From assembly GCA_945875845.1 (NCBI GenBank), contig CAMCMB010000020.1:1-64000 (forward strand): a stretch of DNA of 64,000 nucleotides. The letters run 5' to 3'. The stretch comes from Pirellula staleyi DSM 6068. GTDB taxonomy: Bacteria > Planctomycetota > Planctomycetia > Pirellulales > Pirellulaceae. The notes beneath the pieces were generated by a model. The model saw nothing but the letters and a program-made list of their open reading frames with translations. It was not told where the DNA came from and did not search any database. Each line of letters begins with the position of its first letter. Position 1 is the first letter of the stretch. The position numbers were made by a program, and so were the translations under genes. Below, one piece after another: positions 532-15,441 of the stretch.

Positions 532-783
532 TTACCTCCGCTTCTTGTTCCGTTCAGCAAACTTCTTTTTGGCAGATTCATCGAGATTGTCGAGCACGTA
601 GGGATCCCGCTGCTGTTCCTCATCCATTTTTTGAAACTCCTCCCAACTAATCGTACTGCTCGCGGCTGCTGGTTGGCTCGAAGAACCAGCACAACCCGTC
701 ATTGAACTCGCAATGATCGCTAGCCCCAGTAGACTCGTAATAGTCGCGAGTGAGAAAATGCTCCTGCAATGGCTATTCAGCAT
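532..783 (-). CDS. small lipoprotein
   Basis: This is an 83-aa protein with an N-terminal hydrophobic segment ending in a lipobox (SSMTGC, Cys at about residue 30), so it is probably lipidated and held in a membrane. The mature part begins with a short Ser/Ala-rich linker and then a charged region (WEEFQKMDEEQQ, then LDESAKKKFAERNKK). I chose the ATG at 783; it overlaps the 3' end of the DUF1559 gene by 11 bases, which suggests translational coupling. A longer reading to 903 would put about 40 unlikely residues before the signal sequence. Small lipoproteins of this kind often follow DUF1559 genes in planctomycetes, but the function is unknown. Confidence 0.7.
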   Translation of the reverse strand: MLNSHCRSIFSLATITSLLGLAIIASSMTGCAGSSSQPAAASSTISWEEFQKMDEEQQRDPYVLDNLDESAKKKFAERNKKRR

Positions 784-1738
784 TGACCACCTCACCCCCG
801 TTCCGACTCGATAGCCCTTGGTACGCGCGCATGTCGATACTTTGAGATAGGAATTGAACCGATCCGTCAGCTCGCACAAAATTAACGCCCCCTTTGTGAA
901 CACTTCGGAAGGAGTGCTTGCCGTCCTCAGACACCCTTCGAGGATTGTACGTCCAGTTGGATGCCTCCAAGAGATTTAAGGGTGTGTGGGCGTATCCGAA
1001 GCTAAGGGTAACGTCACCGAAACTCCAAGTCGTACTACCTGTACGTGGTTGCCCGTTGAATGGCCCTGATGAGAAGAAGAATCGCTTGAGGATATTGTGC
1101 GCTTCACCAGCCATTAGTGTGTTGGATGTTCCATCGGTAATACTGGCTAGGGTTACCTTGCCTAGTTCACCCTTGATGATAATTCCATCATCTTTTGTGA
1201 AGCCATCGCGTTCAGCCCCTGAGGCACCTACGCCAAGGAAAGTCCTGTTGCCCGCACACCAAAAATAACTCGACCAGCCTGGCCATGCCTTCGGGTTGGG
1301 TTCGATATCTCCCGGAGCAATAAAGGTTGGAATGGGAGTTGAGTGAACCATCAGATTTGTCCAGCCGTCCCGTACGACCGTCGCGTCGCGTGGATCTAGC
1401 TTCGGATCGTACCGATTTGACAAGTTACCTTGCTCAAGATAAGGCAGTATCAGCGCCCATCCACTTGTGCCTGGATGAAAACGGGGATCAGCGGAAACAC
1501 CGGTCACCGCTGTATAGTTTTGAGCGTTTGGGAAGTTCTTGTACACCGTCATAAAGTTATGGGTAGCCAGCCCAATCTGCTTCAAATTGTTCTGGCTACT
1601 CATGCGTCGCGCAGCGTCGCGGGCTGCTTGAACGGCGGGTAACAAAAGCCCAACTAAGATCCCAATAATTGCAATAACAACAAGTAGCTCGACCAGAGTG
1701 AACGCGAGCTTCTTTTGGCGTTCGAATTGCCTTCTCAT
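773..1738 (-). CDS. DUF1559 protein with prepilin-type N-terminus
   Basis: The N-terminus has a type IV prepilin/pseudopilin methylation motif (KLAFTLVELLVVIAIIGIL) and then the DUF1559 signature: LLPAVQAARDAARRM, NNLKQIGLATHNF, and a C-terminal HKGGVNFVRADGSVQFLS block. DUF1559 proteins are greatly expanded in planctomycetes and are presumed to be pilin-like surface or secretion proteins. The ATG at 1738 follows a good AAGGGG ribosome site; the ATG 36 bases upstream lacks one and would add a non-hydrophobic leader. It lies 60 bases downstream of the CobN-like gene and may be the fourth gene of that operon. The length of about 321 aa is normal for the family. Confidence 0.9.
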   Translation of the reverse strand: MRRQFERQKKLAFTLVELLVVIAIIGILVGLLLPAVQAARDAARRMSSQNNLKQIGLATHNFMTVYKNFPNAQNYTAVTGVSADPRFHPGTSGWALILPYLEQGNLSNRYDPKLDPRDATVVRDGWTNLMVHSTPIPTFIAPGDIEPNPKAWPGWSSYFWCAGNRTFLGVGASGAERDGFTKDDGIIIKGELGKVTLASITDGTSNTLMAGEAHNILKRFFFSSGPFNGQPRTGSTTWSFGDVTLSFGYAHTPLNLLEASNWTYNPRRVSEDGKHSFRSVHKGGVNFVRADGSVQFLSQSIDMRAYQGLSSRNGGEVVNAE

Positions 1739-1798
1739 ATTTTCCCCTTCTAAATGGATGAATGAAAACATCAACTTCTAAAAAAATCCTGTTGACTC

Positions 1799-4700
1799 TC
1801 AAGCGGAACGACCCAGAAACCAACCGGCTGCGATCAAGACGAATGCGGAAGCGCCTAATCCAATCCACAACCATGGAAGCTCGGAGCGATTCGTCGCTTG
1901 GCTGCCTGCTATCGTCTTTTCTTCGAGTAACTGACCAGTCACGGCCACCTCCGTTTGAGATGATGCACTACTTTCATTCGGAGCTCGCGAAGCTCGATCT
2001 ATGCTCGATTCTAGATTGGCTGCAGGCGTGCTACTCTCTGCGGTGGAAGTGCTCGCAGTCACCGAAGTGGCGTCTGGCACGGCATCGGCCGCTATAGTCT
2101 CCGTCACCTTTTCAATCGTGTTTCGATAGCCGACCATTAGCTCCTTTGCCGCAGGCGAATCACCAATCGCTTTTTCGATTTCGCCGGTTAGCGATTCATT
2201 TCGACAAATACCAGCTTCACAAACAGCACCATGTGTCGTCACACTTTGAGCGAGCTTGTTGGCGACCTGCGAAAGCTCTTCCGAAGTCGCTTGCCAATGG
2301 CCCCTCGAAGCAGCTCCAAGCAAGTTCGCCAGCAATACCTGTTGTGAGTAAGGATTGTACTTCTCGAAAAACTCGTTCATGTTCAGCTTTAGTTTGTCAT
2401 CGACATATACGGATTTCACTTCGGACCAGTCGGCGCTGCTCACCATTTTGGTCGCGGTTGAATCCCAAAGATCCAGGTGGTCGGTCATGAGCATCATGGT
2501 TCGAGCGCCGTCGTAGCCGTGCGCCTGCATCTCTTTGAGCCATTTCGGATTAAAGTACCTAGATCGCAATTCGTTTTGCAGCGCGCGGGAGGCAGGTTCG
2601 ATGGAAACACTTTCTTTGTTGCGAAGATTACTTACGTAAAGATCGATGTCTTTACCTTTAACCGCTTTTGCAGATAGATTCAAACCTCCCAAAAAGCCAG
2701 CAGACATTGGGTGGTCCAACAATCCGTTTACATTGCTACTTCTCGGAAGCGTGGCGGCATCGACTTTGCCTAGGTTTTGCTCAAACACAGGTCGAGCGGC
2801 CTCACCGTAAAAGCCTCCTCCGTATGCGTGGCTCATCCTTTTCGTAAAGAGTTCTGCCATGCGAGATTCGTCACCTCGCTGGTCGCCTGACTTCGCTAAG
2901 AACTGTATGCTAGGCGAGTGAGCCCCTGGAGCCGGTGCGAAAACACGGGCTAGCGCCAGTTTCGAAGCGCGATCTCTTGACTCGCCATTGGCTAACATCC
3001 GTTCAATCGATTCGCGAGTGGACGCCGACACCGGGTTGTCTGCTTCTGCTGATTCGGTTGCCAGTTTTACCGCGGCAGCGATCAATTCGACCTTGTCTTG
3101 ATAGTGATCTCGATATGTCCCGCTGGTCGTGATAAGCACGTCCACTCTCGGGCGTCCGAGCGTTTCGCGTGGTATGAGTTCGACACCCGTGATATGGCCA
3201 CGTACGTCGCGAACAACTCGGGTTCCTAATAGATGCAGAATTTGAGCCTCGGTGACTCCGTGATTCTTGGCAATCTCGCTCGACCAAATCACAAAGGCCA
3301 GCTTGATTGGATAGTCGCCATTGTTCTTCTCACGGTGAGCTGAGATCAACGCCTCAGCTTGACGTATCCCAATCGATTCCGCCTCGGGCGTCGGTATCGC
3401 ATCTTGATCGAAGTTGTAAAGCGATCGACCAGGTGGCAGCGAATCGGGGTCACGTATCGGTTCCTCCATTGGTCCCGGTTCGATGTACTTGCCTGATAAT
3501 GCTTCTAAAATCGAATCGATTTCGCGCGGTGCAGTACGAAGCAAATTTGCATAGGTATTGGCAAGTGCTAGCTGAGCCTCCGCATCAGGCGAAGTCTTTC
3601 CAACGTGAATGGACAAAGCATCTGAGGGCGAGCGTCCTTCCAACAAAACGGCGGCCACCAGAGAACGAGCCGCGACATAAGGTGTTTCTGTCATTGTCTC
3701 AAGCGACTTGCGCAACTCCGAACCGAGCATGCTTGTCACCATGTCAGAAAGTGCAGCTCCCGAGGGGGCATCACCAAGTATCTTGCTACCGTGCGGCGCA
3801 TGAGAGCGATCAAGGTCGACCAGGAATGTGTTAATGCTGGTCAATAGTTCTGGAAATGCGGCAGTGTCAACATCCATCGGAGCGATTGCTCGATCAATAC
3901 CGGTTCGCTTCACTTCCTCGCGAATCAATGGTTCAGCATCCGATCGCAACTTCTCATCGGGTTGCGATTGATACCGAGCAATGCGCGCCCGTAGCTCAAA
4001 TAATTGCTCCACCCCGTCAGCCGGAACGACATGGTTGTACCAGCCGACTGTCTGCGCTAATCCCTTGCGTTTCATAGAAACTCCGCCGTTGGCACCCAGA
4101 CGCTCTGGATGTATCTGGGGAATTGCGCCTAACATGATTCCAATGTGGTCGTCTACTACAGGTCCCTCCGACTTGCCGCCCTGGAGCACAAGATTGGAGA
4201 ACATGCTCACCCAAGCATCCGCCTTGAAATCGCGTTGAAGCCAAAGAAAGAAAGCCAAGTATTGGTGATGCGGAGGTAAGGCGCCCGTTGACATGAGCGC
4301 TTTATTACTCTGAAGGTAGCCCCAGTCAGGATGCGGTGCGATCAGGACGTTACCAAGTTGAATCTTCGGGATAACGAGAAAACGTTTCCCTTTTGGATCG
4401 GTATACACCATTACTTCGCCGGGAGGCGGTCCCCACATCTCAACGATCTCAGCACGACGAGCGGCCGGCAGGGCATCAAACCAATCTCGATACGTTTCCT
4501 CCGGCAATAGAGCGACCTCTGCCGTTCGTACACGTTCCGCCAATTCCCCCGGAGCCCATGAACCAACATTGGACGCCTGATTGGCCATTCGATTTGCGAA
4601 CCAGTCTCGATCAGGCACCGGAGCGCTACCGACATCATACCCCAGTCGCTTCATTTCGGTCAGCATCCGCACTAGACTGCCTTGTACATCCAGGAAGTCA

Positions 4701-5971
4701 TCGGGATCACCTCCGACATTTGCTTTCCCGGCTCCTTCGCTCCAATAAGTGAAAACAACTCGCTTCGATTGGTTGGCCGCTCGATGCAAGCGGCCCCAGG
4801 CAATGGCTCTCCGAACTCGCCACTCGACTTGTGACAGAAGTGGAGCTATCGCATGCCTCGCTCCCCGCGGTGCTCCCTTTACACTTACCACCAGCGGTTC
4901 AATGACTCCAGTACGCTCCGTATTGACGAGATGGGCTGTAAAATCGGGATGAAGTCCATTCGGTGAGGCAGCGAACTCGTCGGCAGTCATCTTGTGGTGG
5001 TTAAGCATGTGTACGATAGGAACGCCTAGCTTTCTTGCCTCAGCGATTCCTGAGTCGTTGCCCTTCAAGTGCAAACGCTCACCGCCAAACAAGAGCACGT
5101 CTATGATCACGCGATTGTCTCGAGTGAAAAGCTCCACCAACGCAGGATCGCCACGTCCGAGTAGCGGGATTATCGAGGAGCCTTGACGTTCCGTAGCGCG
5201 AATGATTGCATCCACATGAGCCATGTTCTCTTGCTGGAAATGTGTCAGATGCGAATACAGTCCAAGCGTTAATAGGTTCGACGCTTTCTCCTGGTTCCCA
5301 GCGCTAGTCAATTGAGTTCGGGTTTGTTGCCAATCCAAATAATCAGAAAGTGTTACAAAAAAATGAGGTGCAGGTGCATCGGGGTGGTAGTACAGGCACT
5401 GAGGGTAGATTACTGGAGCTGGAATCGTTTGCCCTGGGGCTACAAACTCCTTTCTACCAGCTACCTCGACCAGCAAGTATTGGATAAGTGCTGCGTAGTT
5501 CTTTTGGGATGGATTGCGCCAGTAACGCTCAAGCGAAGGATGTTCAACTAGTGAAACATTACCTTCTATACTGGCGCTGCTGTCTGTTGAACTAATATTG
5601 GATGCCGGATTGTTTTCAGTTCGTTCATTCGATAAGGGGGAAACGATAACCACTTTGGTTCTAGACTTAGCGGTTTGAATTTGTTGATGGCTTTTTTCGA
5701 GTCCATCGGTCGATCCATCGATGAAGACAACATCAAAGCTGGAAAGGTCCGTCTCAGCGGTGAAAGCGTCACCACCAGAGCCAGGTGCGAAGATGGACAA
5801 ACCAACTTTGCCAGTCGTGACTGCTGCTCGACGAATTTCCGCGGGACCAACCGACTCACCACCTGAGTAGATTATCGCTACTCGAGGTACTTCGTTGGCA
5901 CTGGACCAGTCGCCCATCGCAAAGGCGCAAGCTAAAACAATTAGGAATTGAGTGAACGAGAAAGATTTCAT
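1799..5971 (-). CDS. exported CobN/HmuS-like chelatase, membrane-anchored
   Basis: A 1390-aa protein of the CobN/BchH (cobalt/magnesium chelatase large subunit) family. Unlike cytosolic CobN it begins with a signal peptide (about residues 1-25, ending in SSANE) and ends with one transmembrane helix (about 1365-1387) preceded by a Ser/Thr-rich linker, so the chelatase body should lie on the periplasmic side. Its direct partners are a DUF2149 gene (3 bases upstream) and an ExbB/TolQ-like gene. This matches HmuS, HmuV and HmuU of the hmuYRSTUV haem-uptake locus of Bacteroidetes, where HmuS has been proposed or shown to remove metal from haem. No ChlI/ChlD or CobS/CobT AAA partner is present, which argues against a biosynthetic insertase. 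Substrate (haem, cobalamin or another tetrapyrrole) cannot be told from sequence. Confidence 0.85.
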   Translation of the reverse strand: MKSFSFTQFLIVLACAFAMGDWSSANEVPRVAIIYSGGESVGPAEIRRAAVTTGKVGLSIFAPGSGGDAFTAETDLSSFDVVFIDGSTDGLEKSHQQIQTAKSRTKVVIVSPLSNERTENNPASNISSTDSSASIEGNVSLVEHPSLERYWRNPSQKNYAALIQYLLVEVAGRKEFVAPGQTIPAPVIYPQCLYYHPDAPAPHFFVTLSDYLDWQQTRTQLTSAGNQEKASNLLTLGLYSHLTHFQQENMAHVDAIIRATERQGSSIIPLLGRGDPALVELFTRDNRVIIDVLLFGGERLHLKGNDSGIAEARKLGVPIVHMLNHHKMTADEFAASPNGLHPDFTAHLVNTERTGVIEPLVVSVKGAPRGARHAIAPLLSQVEWRVRRAIAWGRLHRAANQSKRVVFTYWSEGAGKANVGGDPDDFLDVQGSLVRMLTEMKRLGYDVGSAPVPDRDWFANRMANQASNVGSWAPGELAERVRTAEVALLPEETYRDWFDALPAARRAEIVEMWGPPPGEVMVYTDPKGKRFLVIPKIQLGNVLIAPHPDWGYLQSNKALMSTGALPPHHQYLAFFLWLQRDFKADAWVSMFSNLVLQGGKSEGPVVDDHIGIMLGAIPQIHPERLGANGGVSMKRKGLAQTVGWYNHVVPADGVEQLFELRARIARYQSQPDEKLRSDAEPLIREEVKRTGIDRAIAPMDVDTAAFPELLTSINTFLVDLDRSHAPHGSKILGDAPSGAALSDMVTSMLGSELRKSLETMTETPYVAARSLVAAVLLEGRSPSDALSIHVGKTSPDAEAQLALANTYANLLRTAPREIDSILEALSGKYIEPGPMEEPIRDPDSLPPGRSLYNFDQDAIPTPEAESIGIRQAEALISAHREKNNGDYPIKLAFVIWSSEIAKNHGVTEAQILHLLGTRVVRDVRGHITGVELIPRETLGRPRVDVLITTSGTYRDHYQDKVELIAAAVKLATESAEADNPVSASTRESIERMLANGESRDRASKLALARVFAPAPGAHSPSIQFLAKSGDQRGDESRMAELFTKRMSHAYGGGFYGEAARPVFEQNLGKVDAATLPRSSNVNGLLDHPMSAGFLGGLNLSAKAVKGKDIDLYVSNLRNKESVSIEPASRALQNELRSRYFNPKWLKEMQAHGYDGARTMMLMTDHLDLWDSTATKMVSSADWSEVKSVYVDDKLKLNMNEFFEKYNPYSQQVLLANLLGAASRGHWQATSEELSQVANKLAQSVTTHGAVCEAGICRNESLTGEIEKAIGDSPAAKELMVGYRNTIEKVTETIAADAVPDATSVTASTSTAESSTPAANLESSIDRASRAPNESSASSQTEVAVTGQLLEEKTIAGSQATNRSELPWLWIGLGASAFVLIAAGWFLGRSA

Positions 5972-5974
5972 TTG

Positions 5975-6355
5975 TTATTTTTTGGGTGAACGCAAATCGG
6001 GATTGGTTTCGTCTTCCGGGACATAAACGACTTGCCCGTTGGCTAGCCGATAGGCGGTGCCAAGTCGCGTACCTTGACCAGACAATGATTTGTCAGTGAC
6101 TTTTTGAACTTTGATTTCAGCTCCTTCTTTGGTGATGATTTCCGTCGAGCCATCACTCGAAGTTTTTACCATCGTCACGCTGGAGTTCTTATCGAGCATG
6201 GCTCCAGAAGAAAACAACGCAAACAAAGCAATGAGCAGTGCAACGATGAAGGCAACCGATACATCGAATAAATTCGCCAAGCCAGCGAGCGGATCTTCAT
6301 CGTCGATAGATTCCGTCACATGTGCTCGACCTCTCTTGCTTCGGACGAATCTCAT
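5975..6355 (-). CDS. DUF2149 membrane protein (HmuV-like)
   Basis: A 126-aa protein with a short basic N-terminus, the DEDPLAGLANLFDV block leading into a single transmembrane helix (about 28-50), and a periplasmic tail ending in GTAYRLANGQVVYVPE, the DUF2149 hallmark. It is shaped like ExbD/TolR (one N-terminal helix plus a periplasmic domain), and an Asp sits just before the helix. It overlaps the ExbB-like gene by ATGA and ends 3 bases before the CobN-like gene, so the three are translated as one unit. Inference: it couples the proton channel to the exported chelatase. Function is not proven for the family outside the haem-uptake context. Confidence 0.85.
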   Translation of the reverse strand: MRFVRSKRGRAHVTESIDDEDPLAGLANLFDVSVAFIVALLIALFALFSSGAMLDKNSSVTMVKTSSDGSTEIITKEGAEIKVQKVTDKSLSGQGTRLGTAYRLANGQVVYVPEDETNPDLRSPKK

Positions 6356-6918
6356 AGGCTATGCGCTCCATCAACTGAGCGGCTAAGCAATAGACGTTCG
6401 GCAAAAAGATCCAATGAGTCACTGTCTGCACGCATCCAGCCTTCACGTACTGCCGTCATCAAGTAGGCGATGACGCTAATCGAGAGTCCGATAACGGTGG
6501 CAGCGAAAGCGGTAACCATATTGCTTGCAAGTGCGGGCATATTACCCTCCGCCAGTCCCTGCAGAGCGTCTGCCATCGGAATCAATGTCCCCATCAGTCC
6601 CAGCGAAGGCCCCAGCCTGATGGCGATTTTCGTCCGAGTCAACACGCGCGCTCGACGCCGCTGGGCGGTCATCAAAACTTCCTCTAACTCCAACTCCAAT
6701 TCATTTTTATCCGCAACCCTTCGCTCAATCTCATGAAGGGATTCGCGTTCGCACTGTAACGAAGATCGTTGACCTCGCCCGCGAGAAAGCCATTCCCTCG
6801 CAAACGTACCGAGCGAAAACAAAACCCAAGCAGCGAGCAGTAACATCCCGACGAGCACAGGCCAAACCAGAACACCGGCAATCGAATGGAAAATCTCACG
6901 CAGTTGATCAACGCTCAT
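6352..6918 (-). CDS. MotA/TolQ/ExbB-type proton channel (HmuU-like)
   Basis: This 188-aa protein has three membrane segments: one N-terminal (about 18-40) and two C-terminal, with the family core RLGPSLGLMGTLIPMADALQGLAEGN and TAFAATVIGLSIS. That core is typical of ExbB/TolQ/MotA channels, which use the proton gradient to drive movement of a partner across the envelope. I take the ATG at 6918, preceded by GAAGA; a TTG twelve bases upstream is possible. It is the first gene of the operon ExbB-like, DUF2149, CobN-like. No ExbD or TonB gene is next to it; the DUF2149 protein probably takes the ExbD role. Confidence 0.85.
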   Translation of the reverse strand: MSVDQLREIFHSIAGVLVWPVLVGMLLLAAWVLFSLGTFAREWLSRGRGQRSSLQCERESLHEIERRVADKNELELELEEVLMTAQRRRARVLTRTKIAIRLGPSLGLMGTLIPMADALQGLAEGNMPALASNMVTAFAATVIGLSISVIAYLMTAVREGWMRADSDSLDLFAERLLLSRSVDGAHSL

Positions 6919-7063
6919 GGATATCTTCAAGATGAATAGGAAACTGGATAATCACACCGCCCCCCTCATTTAAAGCATGGCGGTTTAGGCGAAATCGTTC
7001 AAATGACTAGATTTGGCGGCAAACGACTACGATCAGCATATCGCCCAATGTAGATGCTATAGT

Positions 7064-7084
7064 ACTTGCAACTAGTATGCAAGT
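7064..7084. promoter_or_regulatory. candidate operator palindrome
   Basis: The sequence ACTTGCA-ACTAGTA-TGCAAGT has 7-base arms that are exact reverse complements around a 7-base centre that itself contains the palindrome ACTAGT. It sits about 145 bases upstream of the ExbB-like start codon. This spacing suits a repressor or activator site for the operon. The regulator is unknown and no second copy was seen. Confidence 0.4.
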
Positions 7085-7638
7085 GCCGGCGTTAAGCAAA
7101 ACGCATGTTTATTGCAATGAGGTTCCACTGACGTGAAACTACGTGCAACTCAGGCAAGGCCACGCTTTTGAATTACATCCTCAATAATCGCAAACTTCGA
7201 TTGTTTTTTATCGAGCCGAGTGGTTGTTCCGATCCGTCGCCAATCAATGAGATGTTCACGTTTGGAATCAAGAATGACAGATCTCTGAACTCGACGAATT
7301 GGTCACGTTTGTTGATGCCATCCCAAGGATGGCTCGAGCACGAATTTAGCAATACTATAGACTGAGACCTCTGGGACCGACGACACGCTACCTGGGACAA
7401 CCAGGCAAATAGGCGCTCTCAAACTCTCAGAAAGCAATCGCCAGTCGCTCTCTCGGATCGCCTCATTCTGTTAACTAGCCTGTGGCCGTTAACCGAGAGA
7501 GTTCGAGAGATTCGGCTATCCTGGACGGGGTGGCGATCAGGAAACGGGCGATTCGGGACGTTGGCCTGGCAGGAAGAGACGCATGGTTTGTGGCGTCGGT
7601 TAACAAGAAACACGCAAAAACCACGGATTTAAACGAAA

Positions 7639-7664
7639 AAAGCCGAGGTAGAGACCTCGGCTTT
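7639..7664 (-). terminator. intrinsic terminator of tRNA-Asn
   Basis: A perfect 11-base stem (AAAGCCGAGGT with ACCTCGGCTTT) closes a 4-base loop. On the minus strand it is followed by a T-run (CTTTTTTCG). It lies 45 bases downstream of the tRNA-Asn gene on the same strand. Confidence 0.8.
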
Positions 7665-7708
7665 CTGCGTTAACTGAACCAGACCAGTTTCGAGACTGTT
7701 CTGAAAGG

Positions 7709-8250: not shown

Positions 8251-10608
8251 TTGCGGATGGCTTGGTTCACGCTGCAGAGATTGACGGATCCTTTCAAAAA
8301 GCTCGGGCGCCCTCGTAGAAAAAATCGCCCCCCTACGCGACGATTAACCCTCGAGCCCTTGGAAACGAGAAGCCTGTTCGCCGGGCTGCCATTCGGTGCC
8401 GCTCCCGATGATACCGCGGAGTTCATGCTGGGCCGGATCGCCGTCACCCCCGTCTTCCTCGAAAGCAACGGGCAAATCGATTCGAGCACCGAGAACTGGA
8501 CCCCCGCCCAAAAAACAACCGTTCTCAACAATATTCAAACCGGACTCGATTGGTGGAAACAACTTCTCACCACCAAAAGCACGATTCACTCGCTCGATTT
8601 CGTGATCGATACGACTTATGTCGACACACCCGCCGCAACCCCCTACGAACCCATTTCACGAATATCCAACGCTTATGCGGATTGGGTTTCGCAGTTCCTC
8701 GTCGACCGTGGATTCTCGCAAAGTTCACAACTTGACGCCAATATGCGTTCATTTAACAACGCGCAACGCGTCAAGCTCGACACCGATTGGTCGTTTACCA
8801 TGTTTGTCGTCAACTCGCAAAACGACAGCGATGGCAATTTCGCACCAGGTGGCTCATTCGATCGCGCGTTTTCCTTTGCGGGGGGACTCTTTCAGGTTGT
8901 GCCATCGACTCGCCCTGCCTCGACTTTCGCCCATGAAACCGGCCATATGTTTTGGGCACGCGATGAGTACATCGGTGGCTCGAACTATTATCAAAAACGC
9001 GGCTACTACAATACTCAGAACACCAATGCTATCGATCTGAACCCCAATCCCTCCTTCGTGCAAGCCGATAGCATCATGTCAAGTGGAGCGGCTCTCGATC
9101 GTGCGTTCTCTCACGTGACAACCGCGGATGCCACTCTTGCACAACTAGGCTGGTTGGACTCGGACGGCGATGGGATCTTTGACGTGCTGGATGTGCCCTT
9201 AAAACTGGAAGGATTAGGGCAACTGAATTCAACCGGCACCACCTACGGCTTCGTGGGCCGAGCTGTCGTTCAAACCTTGCCCAACGCGAACAGTTCGGGC
9301 TTGCAAAACGATATCACGACCAATCGGATCGGACGGATCGAGTATCGACTCAACAATGGCAACTGGCAAACGTTGACCACCCCGAATGCAAACCAAGTCG
9401 ACTTGAATTTGAGCATCCCTCTTGCCGCAGGAACAACGGGGGCCATTGAGATTCGGGCCATTGCTTCCTCTAACGGAATCACAAGTAATGTCTTTCGCGG
9501 AACGCTTGGTCCCACCCGTGATACGGCCTCGGTTCCCGGCATTCAAGGTTTTGCTTGGAGCGACGTCAATCGCGATGGACAATGGCAGTCGGCAGAAACG
9601 GGGATTGCCAATGCTCGCGTAAGGCTTGTTGACGGTAACCGTCAGCCAGTGGTCCTTCAGAGCCGCATCGAACCTGACAACTTTTCCGTTGGCTCGATTG
9701 CTTCCAATCAAAATGGCGTGCTTATCGAAGCGATTGGTGAGGACGCGAACGGAACGGTGGGAGTATTCACCGATAGTTCTGCTACGACCGGCTCCAAGGT
9801 CTTCCGTCCCTTTTCGACATCGCAGATAGCCTTCGTGGATTCGTTCCGTGGCGACCAACAGCAACTGCGAATTACGTTTGCGCAACCCACCACGAGCGTT
9901 TCGATCGATGCGATTGCGGGTAGCGACAATACGATCGCGAGGTTCGACGCCTATTCCTCCGACGGCAAGCTCATACGTCGCTTTCAGTCGGAATCATTGA
10001 GCACCGGTGGCAAGGTGACGATGCGAGTCGGGTCGGACGTTGCCGATATCGCGGTCGTCATCGCCCGAGGGATGCGAAATGCAAAGATCAAGTTAGACAA
10101 TCTGGTAATTGGGCCCGCAACCGAAACAACGACTTCGGCGAACGGGAGTTATCTCTTGCCGGGTATTCCGTCGGGAACCTATCAAGTCGAAATCACTCCG
10201 CAAACACCAGCCTACGACTATGTGCAACCGAGCACAGGACTTCGTTCGTTGACTGTGGTGGCTGGCACGGTCAACTCGCATGTTGACTTCAGTTTGCGAC
10301 CCGCAGTTTCCCCTTGGCAAAATCAGGTACAGCGCCAAGACGTCAACAACGATGGGCGGGTAACTTCCTTGGATGTGCTGGTGGTGATCAATGAAATCAA
10401 TCGCAACGGTGCGAGGCCACTTGAAAACTCCGGTGTTGTGTCTCCTCCTTTTTACGATGTCGATGGAAATCGCTCGCTTGAAGCACTCGATGCGTTGATC
10501 GTGATCAATTTCATCAATGCCACCCAGGGAAATGGCGAAGGCGAATCGATCTTCTTAGATGAAATGGGAGTGGATGAGTGGGTGTTGCGAAAGAGACGCA
10601 AAGCGTAG
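8251..10608 (+). CDS. secreted metalloprotease-like protein with SdrD-B-like and dockerin domains
   Basis: A 785-aa protein. The N-terminus is basic and carries LEPLETRSLFAG, the planctomycete surface-protein variant of the LEPLE(N/D)R motif thought to direct export. At about residues 228-241 it has HETGHMFWARDEY, which fits a zinc metallopeptidase HExxH motif with nearby acidic residues. About residues 430-690 resemble an SdrD-B/collagen-binding fold (GFAWSDVNRDGQW and a late SGTYQVEITP). The last 90 residues contain two dockerin-type calcium loops (DVNNDGRVTSLDVLVVINEIN and DVDGNRSLEALDALIVINFIN). The start is TTG at 8251 with GGAG six bases upstream; ATG at 8257 is the alternative. It converges with the next gene. 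Role inferred: an extracellular protease or adhesin. Confidence 0.8.
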   Translation: MRMAWFTLQRLTDPFKKLGRPRRKNRPPTRRLTLEPLETRSLFAGLPFGAAPDDTAEFMLGRIAVTPVFLESNGQIDSSTENWTPAQKTTVLNNIQTGLDWWKQLLTTKSTIHSLDFVIDTTYVDTPAATPYEPISRISNAYADWVSQFLVDRGFSQSSQLDANMRSFNNAQRVKLDTDWSFTMFVVNSQNDSDGNFAPGGSFDRAFSFAGGLFQVVPSTRPASTFAHETGHMFWARDEYIGGSNYYQKRGYYNTQNTNAIDLNPNPSFVQADSIMSSGAALDRAFSHVTTADATLAQLGWLDSDGDGIFDVLDVPLKLEGLGQLNSTGTTYGFVGRAVVQTLPNANSSGLQNDITTNRIGRIEYRLNNGNWQTLTTPNANQVDLNLSIPLAAGTTGAIEIRAIASSNGITSNVFRGTLGPTRDTASVPGIQGFAWSDVNRDGQWQSAETGIANARVRLVDGNRQPVVLQSRIEPDNFSVGSIASNQNGVLIEAIGEDANGTVGVFTDSSATTGSKVFRPFSTSQIAFVDSFRGDQQQLRITFAQPTTSVSIDAIAGSDNTIARFDAYSSDGKLIRRFQSESLSTGGKVTMRVGSDVADIAVVIARGMRNAKIKLDNLVIGPATETTTSANGSYLLPGIPSGTYQVEITPQTPAYDYVQPSTGLRSLTVVAGTVNSHVDFSLRPAVSPWQNQVQRQDVNNDGRVTSLDVLVVINEINRNGARPLENSGVVSPPFYDVDGNRSLEALDALIVINFINATQGNGEGESIFLDEMGVDEWVLRKRRKA

Positions 10609-10873: not shown

Positions 10874-12796
10874 TTACTCGAATCGATAGATGCACTGACC
10901 CTTGGCGCTGTCGATCATATAGTAGACATCGCCCTTTTGATCCTCGCCAAATGCAAGCACAGGAATGCCTTTTTCAAGCAACTGATCGTTGCGAGACGCT
11001 TTTCCTGTTTTTTCATCGTAAGTCAGTGCCCAAACGCTGCCGCTAACATAGTCGGCATAGATGTATTTGCCATTGAGCTGCGGCAATCTGTCGGAATTAT
11101 AGACACGACCGCCTGTGATCGACTTGCCCACGCTGTGGTCATACTCCCAAACGGGATCGACAGCCGGGGCCACGCCCTGGACTTCTGGACGATTGCCAAA
11201 TGCGTGGCTTCCTTCGTGGTTACTCCAACCATAGTTTCCGCCTTTGGTAATCACATTGACTTCTTCCCACAAATCTTGCCCAACGTCACCGCACCAAAAT
11301 CGGCCTGTCTTCTTGTCAAAGGCAATTCGCCAGGGGTTGCGGAGGCCGTGAGCAAAGATTTCTGGGCGCACACCTTCGACACCAACATATGGGTTGTCTT
11401 TGGGGATTCCGTATTTCAAACCGTCTGTCTTGGTATCCACATCGATGCGGAGGATGGAACCGAGCAATTGAGACCGATTTTGCCCAGACGCATTGGGATC
11501 ATTGCGCGAGCCACCATCACCGAGTGCGATGTAGAGATTTCCGTCTGGACCAAACTCAATCGAACCGCCGTTATGGTTCTTGAACGGCTGCTCGACGTCG
11601 AGAATGATTTCTTCCGAATCGGGATCGGCCACATTGGGATCTGTCTTGGAAAGCCGATATCGGGCGACGACCGTGTGGTCATTTTCCTTCTTCGTATAGC
11701 AGACAAAAAATTCGCCGTTCGATTTGAACTTGGGGTGGAATGCGAGACCGAGCAATCCTTGTTCGTTTGCGCCGTTATCGCTCCACTTTGAGACTTTCTT
11801 TTGGATGTCGAGAAAACGTTTTGATGTTTCGACATCGGCCCGGTTTTCGAACCAGAAAATGAGGCCGCGTTGATCCATTGCAAAGAGACGTTTGTCTTCA
11901 CCTATTGGGTACGTTAGTTCAAGGATTCGAAGGGGTTTGTCGACGGTTCCGTCTTCACCAATGGGCTCCCAGCCGTCCCATTTCAGTTTTGGAAACGCAA
12001 GCGACTTCGCAACATTGATTTTCCCGTCAATGGGTTGTGTGATCGAGCCATCATCGCCTAGTTCGCGGATCTTGATGTTGCGAAAGGAAACCAAATTGCC
12101 GTGGTCTTGAAGGCAAAGAAAACCTTCGCCGGCTGCCCCAAAACCTTCCATCTTTGCGAACTTGCTCTTTTCAACAAGTTCTTTCCATTTGGCATCGCCG
12201 AGTTTGAATTGAAAATACCGAACCCCATTCATAGTGACCTCGCACTGGTTCGGCGCGATTCGCAAGTACAACTGGTTCCATTCACCGGCAGGTCGAGTTG
12301 CATCTGCAGCCTCTTTTTCACCCGCCCAAGCGACTGGCGTAGGTTTGAACAGTTGATAGAGCCAGCCTGACTTTTGCGGATCTGTGCCAGCAACATTATC
12401 TTGGATCTGCACTTCCGGTCCGCTGTTCCAAGGGTTGGGGTTATTCTCGGTCACATGAAACATCAACCCACTATTTCCACCCTTGGAGATTTTGTAGTCG
12501 ACAGAGAACTCAAAGTATTTGTATTTTTTGGTCGTCACGATGTCGCCGGCGTTATTGCCTTCGCGAACCAGTGCTCCGTCAACGACTTTCCATGCGTCGG
12601 AGATGGAATCTTTTTTGTAATTGCGCCAGCCTTCGGTCGTTTTGCCATCGAATAGCAATTTCCAGCCAGCAAGGATTTCTGGGCGCGTAAGCTTGTTGGG
12701 ATCGGCATCCGCAAAAACAGAAGTGTTCGAAACAGAAAAGCAGCACATGAGTGCAAAGCAGCCCAACCAACGGTGTGTTGACTTTCGACGCATCAA
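10874..12796 (-). CDS. DUF1080 domain fused to PQQ-type sugar dehydrogenase domain, secreted
   Basis: A 640-aa protein with a signal peptide (about 1-30, ending in VFADADPN). About residues 38-245 form a DUF1080/3-keto-disaccharide hydrolase-type domain (WKLLFDGKTTEGW, then GGNSGLMFHV and LCLQDHG), a jelly-roll fold common in planctomycete glycan enzymes. About residues 265-640 form a soluble glucose/sorbosone dehydrogenase (GSDH) beta-propeller (NEQGLLGLAFHP, NHNGGSIEFGPDGNLYIALGDGG, FAHGLRNPWR, GGNYGW). It probably acts on sugars outside the cytoplasm with a PQQ-like cofactor. It is a single gene with its own promoter; ATG codons occur at 12796 and 12793. The exact substrate is unknown. Confidence 0.88.
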   Translation of the reverse strand: MMRRKSTHRWLGCFALMCCFSVSNTSVFADADPNKLTRPEILAGWKLLFDGKTTEGWRNYKKDSISDAWKVVDGALVREGNNAGDIVTTKKYKYFEFSVDYKISKGGNSGLMFHVTENNPNPWNSGPEVQIQDNVAGTDPQKSGWLYQLFKPTPVAWAGEKEAADATRPAGEWNQLYLRIAPNQCEVTMNGVRYFQFKLGDAKWKELVEKSKFAKMEGFGAAGEGFLCLQDHGNLVSFRNIKIRELGDDGSITQPIDGKINVAKSLAFPKLKWDGWEPIGEDGTVDKPLRILELTYPIGEDKRLFAMDQRGLIFWFENRADVETSKRFLDIQKKVSKWSDNGANEQGLLGLAFHPKFKSNGEFFVCYTKKENDHTVVARYRLSKTDPNVADPDSEEIILDVEQPFKNHNGGSIEFGPDGNLYIALGDGGSRNDPNASGQNRSQLLGSILRIDVDTKTDGLKYGIPKDNPYVGVEGVRPEIFAHGLRNPWRIAFDKKTGRFWCGDVGQDLWEEVNVITKGGNYGWSNHEGSHAFGNRPEVQGVAPAVDPVWEYDHSVGKSITGGRVYNSDRLPQLNGKYIYADYVSGSVWALTYDEKTGKASRNDQLLEKGIPVLAFGEDQKGDVYYMIDSAKGQCIYRFE

Positions 12797-13236
12797 TCGG
12801 TACCCCGCCTAATTGAAAAAAGAATTGATTACCAACCGCAACCCATTTCGCGATTTACCTCCTTGTTCTAGTTGATGGACGGATCGTTCGAAAGTAGTTA
12901 CAGGGCTTTTTTACCTAGTTGCCGTGAAAATGCCCTTGGACTTTCGAGAAAGGGACGTTCGCCACCCGGCGTTGCTTGCTTGTAGCGCAATTCGAGACGT
13001 TGATCGCTTCTCAGCAATGCACTTGCAGACTACTCTTTAGCGAACGGTAGACGGAAACCGACCAGGGCCCAGAGCGATCGCGATGGGCGTGGGTTCCAAG
13101 TCCACGCAATCGACTCCCCGCACGCCCTTCGTACCCCAGGGAATGCCATCCCATATGCATTAGGTTTCGAACTGCCGCTCGGCTTACAGTTGAATTCACA
13201 TCCCCTTTTTTTGCGTTTAAGTTATTGGCACGATTT
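12797..13236. other. divergent intergenic region
   Basis: This 440-base region between two divergent genes must contain both promoters. No open frame looks coding, and no clear hairpin or riboswitch was seen. Confidence 0.4.
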
Positions 13237-15441
13237 ATGAGAAAGCTCACCGCAGGCGGTGGTTGGCAAGCAGTCCGATACACCTTCAAAAAAGGGATTG
13301 AATCGGGAGGACTTTGGAAGCTTTACCGAGCGCTTCGCTCTCGAAACGCCTGCAAGACGTGCGCACTTGGCATGGGTGGACAGCACGGCGGAATGGTCAA
13401 TGAGCATGGCTCGTTTCCCGAAGTGTGCAAGAAATCGATTCAAGCGATGGCAGCCGACATGCAGCCCGCTATCACTGCCGATTTCTGGGCCAAGCACCCG
13501 ATTTCGCAAATGCGACACTGGTCCCCTCGCCAGCTTGAAACAAGCGGCCGACTCATTCAGCCTATTTTTTATGAGCAAGGGTCCGATCAATATCGCACCA
13601 TCACCTGGAACGAAGCCTTTGATCGTATCGCGGCTCAGCTCAAGCTGCTGATGGCCGATCAAACGTTTTGGTATTTCAGTGGACGGAGCAGCAATGAAGC
13701 GGGCTTTTTGTTGCAGCTGCTTGCTCGTTTGTATGGCACGAACAACGTTAACAATTGCAGCTACTACTGTCACCAAGCCAGTGGCGTCGGACTTCAGTCC
13801 ACACTGGGAACAACCACCGCAACGGTCGTCCTTGACGATTTGGACGATTGCGACACCATTTTCATTATTGGAGGAAATCCGCCGAGCAATCATCCTCGAT
13901 TGATGACCACCCTCATGCACATTCGTCGCCGGGGTGGAAGGATCGTGGTGATCAATCCCGTTCGAGAGTTGGGCTTGATCAAATTCAAGGTTCCCAGCGA
14001 TCCATTGAGCCTGTTCTTTGGAACCAAGATTGCGACCCATTACATTCAGCCTCATATCGGAGGCGATTTGGCTTTGCTAACTGGCGTTTGCAAAGCCGTT
14101 GTGGAAATGGGCCGACATGATGTCGAATACCTTGACAAACATTGCAACGATGTCGACGCGTATCTTGCGGGACTCTCAAGCGCTCCTTGGCGAGAGATAT
14201 GCGACAAGAGTGGCATTGATGAAAAATCGATCCGCGAGATTGCGGAGGTCTATGCCAAAAGCAACGCCTCCATTTTTTCCTGGACCATGGGGATCACACA
14301 CCACACTCAAGGTGTTGAAAATGTTCAAGCCATCGTCAACCTTGCTTTGCTCCGGGGAATGATCGGTCGCAAAGGTGCAGGAGTCATGCCAATACGCGGT
14401 CACTCCAATGTCCAAGGAATCGGTTCGGTAGGTGTTACGCCAAAACTCAAAGACGAACTGTTCGATAACCTGACAAACAAGTTTGGCGTCACACTGCCAA
14501 CGACCCAAGGACGCGACACGCTGGACTGCATCGAGGCGGCTGCCAAGGGAGAGCTTAAATTCGCATTTTGTCTCGGCGGAAACCTTTATGGTTCGAACCC
14601 AGATTCGCAATTCGCGGAACAAGCGCTCGAATCGCTCGATATGTTGGTCATGCTCAATACGACGCTCAACACCGGTCATGCGCGCGGTCTGGCCAAGTCG
14701 ACGATCGTTCTACCTGTATTGGCCCGAGACGAGGAGCCTGAGCCAACGACCCAAGAGTCGATGTTCAACTACGTGCGTTTAAGCGATGGAGGTCCCAAGC
14801 GATTGCCAGGTCCACGCAGCGAGATTCATGTGATTGCGGAAATCGGCCGCCGTTTGCTCGGCAATTCGACGCCTGTGGATTGGGAAGACATGCAAAAATC
14901 CAACACGATTCGAACTTGGATCTCGAAAGTCGTACCTGGTTACGAACAGATCGAAACGATTGCCAAGACTGGCCAAGAATTTCAAGTTGGCGAGCGGACT
15001 TTCCACGTTCCTAAATTCAAAACGAAGGACGGCAAAGCCAAGCTCTTTTCTCATCGATTGCCAGAGTTGACATCGTTAGCTGGGAATCAACTTCGGCTCA
15101 TGACCGTTCGAAGCGAGGGGCAATTCAATACGGTCGTCTATGAAGACTACGATTTGTATCGCCACCAAGAACGTCGCGATGTGATATTAATGCATCCGAC
15201 GGACATGCAGCGAATGAATCTGGAAAATAATGATTTGGTAACCGTTAGCAGCGAAACGGGCCGAATGCATAACATTTTGGCGCGTTCGTTTGACGAAATC
15301 CGCGATGGGAACGCGATGATGTACTATCCGGAATCCAACGTCCTTGTCCCCCGTACCGTCGATCCACAGTCGCGTACACCCATGTTTAAAAACATCCGGG
15401 TCACGATTGCGAAGCAATTATCGCAGGTCATTAGTCATTAG
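13237..15441 (+). CDS. YdeP/FdhF-type molybdopterin oxidoreductase
   Basis: A 734-aa protein of the formate-dehydrogenase-alpha-like family that includes E. coli YdeP (TIGR01701). The GGGW opening, the WNEAFDRIA block, NNCSYYCHQASGVGL (candidate Mo-ligand Cys at about residue 180), RGHSNVQGIGSVG and the C-terminal FNTVVYEDYD molydopterin-dinucleotide-binding domain support this. Only two cysteines (CKTC) remain in the N-terminal region where classical formate dehydrogenases have four for an iron-sulphur cluster. The reaction is unknown; family members have been linked to acid or oxidative stress. ATG at 13237 is preferred over a TTG at 13225; neither has a strong ribosome site. The last codons coincide with a TCATTAG direct repeat that is also found in an array at 54912. 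Confidence 0.88.
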   Translation: MRKLTAGGGWQAVRYTFKKGIESGGLWKLYRALRSRNACKTCALGMGGQHGGMVNEHGSFPEVCKKSIQAMAADMQPAITADFWAKHPISQMRHWSPRQLETSGRLIQPIFYEQGSDQYRTITWNEAFDRIAAQLKLLMADQTFWYFSGRSSNEAGFLLQLLARLYGTNNVNNCSYYCHQASGVGLQSTLGTTTATVVLDDLDDCDTIFIIGGNPPSNHPRLMTTLMHIRRRGGRIVVINPVRELGLIKFKVPSDPLSLFFGTKIATHYIQPHIGGDLALLTGVCKAVVEMGRHDVEYLDKHCNDVDAYLAGLSSAPWREICDKSGIDEKSIREIAEVYAKSNASIFSWTMGITHHTQGVENVQAIVNLALLRGMIGRKGAGVMPIRGHSNVQGIGSVGVTPKLKDELFDNLTNKFGVTLPTTQGRDTLDCIEAAAKGELKFAFCLGGNLYGSNPDSQFAEQALESLDMLVMLNTTLNTGHARGLAKSTIVLPVLARDEEPEPTTQESMFNYVRLSDGGPKRLPGPRSEIHVIAEIGRRLLGNSTPVDWEDMQKSNTIRTWISKVVPGYEQIETIAKTGQEFQVGERTFHVPKFKTKDGKAKLFSHRLPELTSLAGNQLRLMTVRSEGQFNTVVYEDYDLYRHQERRDVILMHPTDMQRMNLENNDLVTVSSETGRMHNILARSFDEIRDGNAMMYYPESNVLVPRTVDPQSRTPMFKNIRVTIAKQLSQVISH

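Follow-up and report, generated by a model that had tools for sequence, protein, structure and literature searches.

The aerobic cobaltochelatase CobN and the magnesium chelatase ChlH/BchH are cytosolic proteins powered by AAA+ partner subunits. The hmuYRSTUV locus of Bacteroidota, described in Bacteroides thetaiotaomicron and Porphyromonas gingivalis, encodes an exported, membrane-held protein of the CobN superfamily (HmuS), a MotA/TolQ/ExbB-type protein (HmuU) and a DUF2149 protein (HmuV) (available text of PMC12583661 and PMC10434189). Here we describe a comparable trio from Pirellula staleyi DSM 6068 (assembly GCA_945875845.1, contig CAMCMB010000020.1, positions 1 to 64,000); this whole stretch of 64,000 nt is called the window. 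As the initial annotation had proposed, a CobN-family protein lies beside an ExbB-DUF2149 pair, gene for gene comparable with HmuS, HmuU and HmuV. The trio arrangement is already known. The window holds an unusual member of it, which is maintained and stator-linked and lacks the catalytic His of the superfamily, a loss that the initial annotation had overlooked.

A similar trio occurs in Pseudomonas aeruginosa, where PA1923 is CobN-like, PA1924 is annotated in the ExbD proton channel family and PA1925 is a DUF2149 protein. Unlike the window, the PA1922-PA1925 locus includes the TonB-dependent receptor PA1922 and is under Zur/zinc regulation (available text of PMC8531726 and PMC9431628). This zinc-regulated trio shows that there are ligand candidates other than haem.

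The CobN-like protein matched the PF02514 profile over its full length (positions 2–1089 of 1090), with 788.5 bits against a cut-off of 24.5. By sequence it shares this superfamily with CobN and ChlH/BchH, whereas the CobN/ChlH/BchH references carry the motif His (4/4). All nine matching NCBIfam CobN and ChlH/BchH models stayed below their cut-off, the best reaching 758.6 against 1619. The best match in the PDB was HmuS (9d26, 357 bits). The 19-residue mean hydropathy showed an N-terminal peak of 1.55 at residue 1 and a C-terminal peak of 1.97 at residue 1368. A signal peptide and a C-terminal anchor had been claimed before; the hydrophobic segments at both ends stand, and the hydropathy suggests an N-terminal export signal and a C-terminal membrane anchor.

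In the available text of PMC12583661, HmuS of B. thetaiotaomicron is active and the H538A exchange abolishes haem conversion. The active-site dyads proposed there are His-538/Glu-577 and His-1209/Asp-1208, with Glu-1212 bonded to His-1209. In this region the window protein has ADAWVSMF--SNLVLQGGK, compared with, for example, ADAIMHFGTHGSLEFTYGK in relatives, and SMF-SNL takes the place of HFG(T/A)HG. The motif His was kept in 68/68 other aligned homologues, 40/40 further loci of the order and 7/7 plasmid-borne references (CobN, BchH and CobN-like). It was thus retained by 115/115 other homologues examined and was missing only in the window and in L032, a 98%-identical metagenome-assembled genome (MAG). 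The count of 68 rows excludes the window and L032; open reading frames (ORFs) shorter than 600 aa (e.g. L060), the remnant L034 and several genomes with matches (e.g. G160, G166, G552, G555, G614, G039, G089 and G122) were left out of the alignment. The equivalent of Glu-577 was present in 68/68 other rows and had no counterpart in the window protein. At the second site of HmuS, His-1209 aligned with Met and Glu-1212 with Gly.

The losses were not spread evenly over the protein. Among 70 columns conserved at ≥93%, the window departed at 7/11 in the stretch 585–640 and at 10/59 elsewhere (Fisher p 0.0029); it retained 53/70, R940 and R942 among them. In a leave-one-out comparison of the other rows of at least 1200 aa, none lost more than 1/11 in 585–640, even a row with 19/64 losses elsewhere. 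The alignment indicates that the catalytic stretch is specifically lost, since the losses cluster there, unlike in any other row of that length. The motif state was identical in the separate MAG L032, so it is not a local sequencing error. Two other residues of HmuS were compared by pairwise alignment with 9d26, the multiple alignment being gapped at both places: Met-79 aligned with Ser-87 of the window protein, and the residue aligned with His-254 was His. The methionine-rich insertion (HmuS domain IV) was not present in the window protein, which has at most 6 Met per any 100 residues. These absences of Met-79 and of the insertion carry no weight, because among planctomycete rows of the HmuS clade several are likewise without Met-79 and, like the window protein, poor in Met (4–7).

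The nearest public relative found was an uncultured Pirellula MAG, 98% identical, of the isolate ErkenSummer, whose name points to Lake Erken; on this basis the host is regarded as a planctomycete of the Pirellulaceae. Compared with L032, the chelatase gene of the window showed 28 synonymous differences over 1009 sites and 22 nonsynonymous differences over 3161 sites. The ratio of nonsynonymous to synonymous rates (omega) was 0.247, and the deficit of amino-acid changes gave a one-sided binomial p of 1.5e-6. The omega values of the other genes against L032 were 0.094 for ExbB, 0.21 for DUF2149 and 0.073 for DUF1559; the lipoprotein ORF was weakly constrained (0.578). Judged from these substitution counts, the chelatase-like gene is under purifying selection and its protein is still maintained.

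Matches to the CobN superfamily, own genome included, were found in 6/27 genomes of the genus, 38/241 of the family, 71/396 of the order sample and 49/392 of the phylum sample. In 56/70 loci, the ExbB and DUF2149 genes were both at most ~3.3 kb from the chelatase gene and shared its strand. Of the other 14 loci, eight run up against a contig end or the limit of the fetched stretch, four (L116–L119) group with BchH and CobN, and two (L033 and L095) had room and gave no match. The order ExbB-DUF2149-CobN was found in the window, in the HmuS clade and in a planctomycete group termed clade C. Another Pirellulaceae group has the order CobN-ExbB-DUF2149; a DUF1559 gene precedes it in 10/11 family loci, the eleventh lying at a contig end. 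A DUF1559 gene lay at most 305 bp from the chelatase gene on the same strand in 13/70 loci. DUF1559 genes are common (44 matches in the 7.0 Mb of the own genome), and their adjacency looks more than chance, as judged without a formal test.

Rows with LSLDHVYEFMGG formed a strong HmuS clade (10 rows, 100% in the Shimodaira–Hasegawa-like approximate likelihood ratio test, SH-aLRT). A member of this clade (L049) matched the solved HmuS 9d26 at 922 bits, against 357 for the window protein. By this sequence evidence, planctomycetes do possess HmuS-type proteins, the same bacterial family included. The planctomycete proteins of HmuS type, by second motif or clade, are L048, L049, L054–L057, L059, L062, L115, L164, L165 and L171. 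Nine of these loci were scanned (L164, L165 and L171 lay outside the scan), of which eight had no TonB receptor match in the fetched stretch and L056 had one. In L140–L153 and most of L163–L179, mainly from family f2 of the order, the second motif read LDHxYEF without the usual GG, in a fixed-column alignment that drops insertions.

The window protein fell outside the HmuS clade in both chelatase trees, and constraining it there gave p 0.045 in the approximately unbiased (AU) test. Constraining it with CobN/BchH gave p 0.324 and was not rejected. In both trees it was placed in a loose group holding rows with a DNDD motif (supports 93 and 83). The stator tree showed that the stator genes of the window join the DNDD-motif group at 97% SH-aLRT, with non-HmuS relatives. 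From the 40 newer loci of the order, 12 were allowed into the stator tree, where 10 appear, and four into the second chelatase tree. The scan for TonB receptors and cobalamin genes covered the 71 earlier loci and the window, leaving out the 40 newer loci.

Clade C (L040, L043, L044, L046, L050 and L053) comes from the same bacterial family and has the same gene order as the window. Unlike the window, it has adjoining CobS/CobT and an intact catalytic motif; CobS and CobT adjoin 6/8 of its planctomycete loci. One clade C operon encodes, by Pfam, FecCD, ABC_tran, Peripla_BP_2, CobD_Cbib, an aminotransferase-nitroreductase fusion, DBI_PRT and CobS. This context of cobamide salvage, with the intact motif, suggests a periplasmic corrinoid-handling role for clade C. 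In the loose group holding the window, TonB receptors adjoin L081, L083–L085, L098, L101–L105, L107 and L114; L108 has a CbiZ fusion, L106 a relative of this fusion, and DUF2162 transporters are also found. On a Runella plasmid (L121), ExbB-DUF2149-CobN lies between a TonB receptor, a urease-accessory-type gene and hypF/hypCDE hydrogenase maturation genes, which hints at nickel. The initial annotation had named cobalamin biosynthesis genes nearby as part of what would speak against it; phmmer found no cobalamin gene in the window, with no relative of CobS, CobT, CbiB or CbiZ. A CobS gene of the own genome is on another contig. A corrinoid is a possible ligand and is not indicated by the neighbourhood.

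The ExbB protein matched MotA_ExbB (PF01618) at 50.9 bits against a cut-off of 22.9. It retains G111-L112-x-G114-T115 and T145 of the family, and its hydropathy showed at least two strong hydrophobic segments. In the DUF2149 protein, a single hydrophobic helix, close to whose start lies an Asp (D31), is followed by a small C-terminal domain; D31 was kept in 48/48 other rows. Its AlphaFold2 (AF2) model has low confidence (predicted local distance difference test, pLDDT, 61.4) and gives, as topology only, a helix at 22–49 and four strands. An ExbD-like function of DUF2149 is proposed because the protein has a single helix bearing an invariant Asp and its gene adjoins one for ExbB. Of 14 control genomes, only that of Methanosarcina acetivorans gave a DUF2149 match. 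This organism has no Gram-negative outer membrane.

In the published Hmu model, HmuU and HmuV power the TonB receptor HmuR (available text of PMC12583661); the text available of PMC13227078 calls both proteins uncharacterized. The window differs from hmuYRSTUV in this respect too, with no HmuR-type receptor found and neither HmuY nor HmuT among its scanned neighbouring ORFs. The Plug domain (PF07715) gave no match in the 99.95% complete genome, in a search that did not include the beta-barrel PF00593. The same Plug search was positive in three controls (E. coli, Caulobacter and Bacteroides). In the window, phmmer gave no match to three TonB receptor queries, nor to queries for CobS, CobT, CbiB, FecCD, BluB-type, CbiZ and DUF2162 proteins. 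As no Plug domain was found in the genome, the channel is without a recognisable receptor to power.

In the family, a Plug match was found in 115/240 genomes, one of the 241 being outside this search. Ten of the 38 genomes with CobN-like genes were not among the Plug matches. These include all six of the genus (five listed without a match, G164 not shown). Apart from the own genome, six family genomes with the trio (G105, G136, G021, G025, G079 and G128) were not among the matches; one of them, G105, consists of a single contig and gave no Plug match. The trio is retained in genomes in which no receptor was found. The distances of chelatase and stator proteins were correlated (r 0.83, 66 loci), and 0/1000 permutations were as high. 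We infer that the chelatase-like protein is the usual client of the stator.

Our preferred explanation, which we hold with about even confidence, is that the protein is a pseudochelatase that would bind or move a metal chelate or tetrapyrrole and would be coupled to a proton-driven stator. The CobN-like protein would be exported, and its C-terminal helix would keep it at the inner membrane. By sequence the chelatase body appears to be kept, and metal insertion or removal by a His-dependent route would no longer be possible. ExbB and DUF2149 would make up an inner-membrane stator driven by protons, and the client of this stator would be the chelatase-like protein and not a TonB receptor. Proton flow may drive the opening and closing of this protein, and such conformational cycles could lead to capture, holding or passing on of the ligand with no demetallation. 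The pseudopilin and the lipoprotein possibly take part. Precedents by analogy for non-catalytic roles may be found in BtuS of Bacteroides fragilis and HmuS of P. gingivalis. In B. fragilis, protoporphyrin was still made when both btuS1 and btuS2 were mutated, and the authors of that study concluded that dechelatase activity is low or absent (available text of PMC6460266), and HmuS of P. gingivalis has been suggested as a possible haem chaperone (available text of PMC13227078). We speculate further, and only tentatively, that ExbB-DUF2149 stators directly power exported chelatase-like proteins, as a periplasmic counterpart of ATP-driven CobST/ChlID. Here the client would have turned into a non-catalytic machine that moves or holds tetrapyrroles or metal chelates, and the genome shows no TonB receptor that could be detected. 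Among the papers listed in the literature searched, which largely lacked subscription papers, none dealt with an inactivated CobN-like protein or with a planctomycete one, and we make no claim of priority.

Several observations weigh against the stator-coupled pseudochelatase. The chelatase fold is indicated by sequence; the AF2 model of residues 60–1245 (three sequences) reached a pLDDT of only 34.7 and was kept out of fold searches. Among the sequences examined, only two near-identical genes have this form, which makes conservation of any replacement site unreadable. Purifying selection was measured across a short distance only (synonymous distance, dS, 0.028). The stem of the window was among the longest branches in the first chelatase tree (1.42; one other end branch reached 1.5) and the longest of all in the second (1.87); such a length is also compatible with relaxed constraint. 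At ~147144–147700 of G000:C3 (L034 ~7158–7700), the genome has a scrambled and incomplete second copy of the chelatase C-terminus, joined to part of DUF1559. It contains chelatase residues ~1140–1187, then ~1258–1344, then DUF1559 residues 71–172; its chelatase pieces are 75–91% identical to the window protein and lack internal parts. By eye, this copy adjoins sigma-54-activator-like genes. In the stator, the near-invariant GP of the family (46/48 and 43/48) is AD in the window ExbB (residues 120–121, window 6568–6573), and HHalign gave DUF2149 against ExbD a probability of 0.2% to 1.3% (ExbD sets of 4 and 7 sequences), with no support for homology. The AD change follows the GTLIP segment and is a possible co-change with an altered client. 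Plug matches were found in 28/38 genomes bearing CobN-like genes (26 strongly), against 115/240 overall. CobN-like genes and TonB receptors thus tend to co-occur in the family, which suits the older idea of a channel serving receptors. The distance correlation owes part of its strength to shared species history.

The protein could still act as a chelatase or dechelatase on some other metal or ligand if further residues, such as the retained H569 or the DHPM within GLLDHPMSAGFLGG, stood in for the lost His and Glu. The 53/70 conserved columns kept, R940 and R942 included, and the selection on the gene are consistent with this, as are the corrinoid or metal genes (CbiZ, TonB receptors, hydrogenase maturation) adjoining relatives in the loose group. 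Such activity is rather doubtful, however, as the motif His is present in 115/115 homologues, HmuS-, CobN- and BchH-type rows included, its loss kills HmuS (available text of PMC12583661), and the Glu partner and the family-specific second site are gone too. The initial annotation had proposed a possible haem dechelatase of the HmuS type. The best PDB match and the three-gene neighbourhood point to HmuS, a His stands at the His-254 position, and the lack of Met-79 and of the Met-rich insertion is common to several planctomycete HmuS-clade rows. But His-538, Glu-577, His-1209 and Glu-1212 are all absent, and the true HmuS clade, with L049, exists in the same family. The AU test weakly rejects placement in that clade (p 0.045), and in the stator tree the channel genes join relatives outside the HmuS type (97% SH-aLRT); no HmuY-like gene was noted in the neighbourhood and no Plug domain in the genome. 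We consider haem dechelation highly improbable.

The locus may instead be decaying, having lost chelatase function after a duplication and heading to a pseudogene. The very long stem branch, the scrambled second copy of the chelatase-DUF1559 junction and the confinement of the window-type gene to the own genome and its sister G164, among 27 of the genus, would all fit such a course. It is made unlikely by an open frame of ~1390 codons in two MAGs, by the omega values (0.25 for the chelatase, 0.09 for ExbB and 0.07 for DUF1559) and by losses concentrated at one site and not evenly spread. It is quite unlikely that ExbB-DUF2149 serves another system, such as TonB-like transport or a pilus-like one, with the chelatase as a passenger. 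The published Hmu model, in which HmuU/V power HmuR (PMC12583661, available text), and the 28/38 Plug matches in CobN-like genomes speak for it; the own genome has no Plug domain, the six other trio genomes are not among the Plug matches, and the distance correlation indicates that the trio is inherited together.

The features of the locus are listed in Table 1. All five ORFs lie on the minus strand (ExbB, DUF2149, CobN-like, DUF1559 pseudopilin and lipoprotein ORF), as shown by the ORF list and the Pfam scan, which also confirmed their identities and positions as first annotated. Neighbouring genes are separated by at most 24 nt or overlap, consistent with a single operon; ExbB and DUF2149 overlap by 4 nt, and DUF2149 is separated from the CobN-like gene by 3 nt. 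The DUF1559 protein carries an N-methylation motif by Pfam. The lipoprotein ORF had no Pfam match, and its lone NCBIfam match (TrbK) was under the cut-off (21.9 against 23 bits). Its start is likely an internal ATG near 783, which by eye would give the lipobox-like ASSMTGC.

Table 1. Features of the CobN-like locus in the window (positions in nt of the window)
Feature	Position	Strand	Evidence
ExbB/TolQ/MotA-type proton channel subunit; 192 aa from TTG 6930, or 188 aa from ATG 6918	6352..6930	-	Pfam MotA_ExbB 50.9 bits
DUF2149 protein, 126 aa, proposed second stator subunit	5975..6355	-	Pfam DUF2149 95.4 bits
CobN/ChlH/HmuS-superfamily protein, 1390 aa, without catalytic motif	1799..5971	-	Pfam CobN-Mg_chel 788.5 bits
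Codons 585–606, site of superfamily HFG(T/A)HG, here DAWVSMFSNLVLQGGKSEGPVV; no His, 2 residues shorter than relatives	4154..4219	-	Alignments
Codons 1078–1100, site of HmuS LSLDHxxEFMGG, here SSNVNGLLDHPMSAGFLGG	2672..2740	-	Alignments
DUF1559 (SBP_bac_10) pseudopilin-like protein, 24 nt past the CobN-like gene	773..1774	-	PF07596 149.5 bits, N_methyl 28.3 bits
Small lipoprotein ORF	532..903	-	ORF list

A perfect 7-bp inverted repeat (ACTTGCA-N7-TGCAAGT) lies at window 7064–7084, ~135 bp upstream of ExbB. None arose in shuffled sequence. The repeat has one mismatch in the sister L032, inside a patch of raised divergence, and the exact palindrome was found in no other fetched locus, save copies of the same locus. 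Given this mismatch and the lack of an exact copy in other loci, we do not claim it as an operator. In the Rfam scan of the window, tRNA alone reached the threshold, with no other RNA family. Elsewhere, the window holds an ORF with a dockerin domain close to its end (8251–10608), an ORF joining 3-keto-disaccharide hydrolase and glucose/sorbosone dehydrogenase domains (10874–12796) and a molybdopterin oxidoreductase ORF (13225–15441).

Because the trio occurs where no TonB receptor could be detected, the alternative in which the stator has the chelatase as its client becomes directly testable. A member that keeps the stator and lacks the catalytic His sets binding and force transduction apart from metal chemistry. 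It also warns that a blanket annotation of such loci as haem dechelatase or cobaltochelatase is unsafe.

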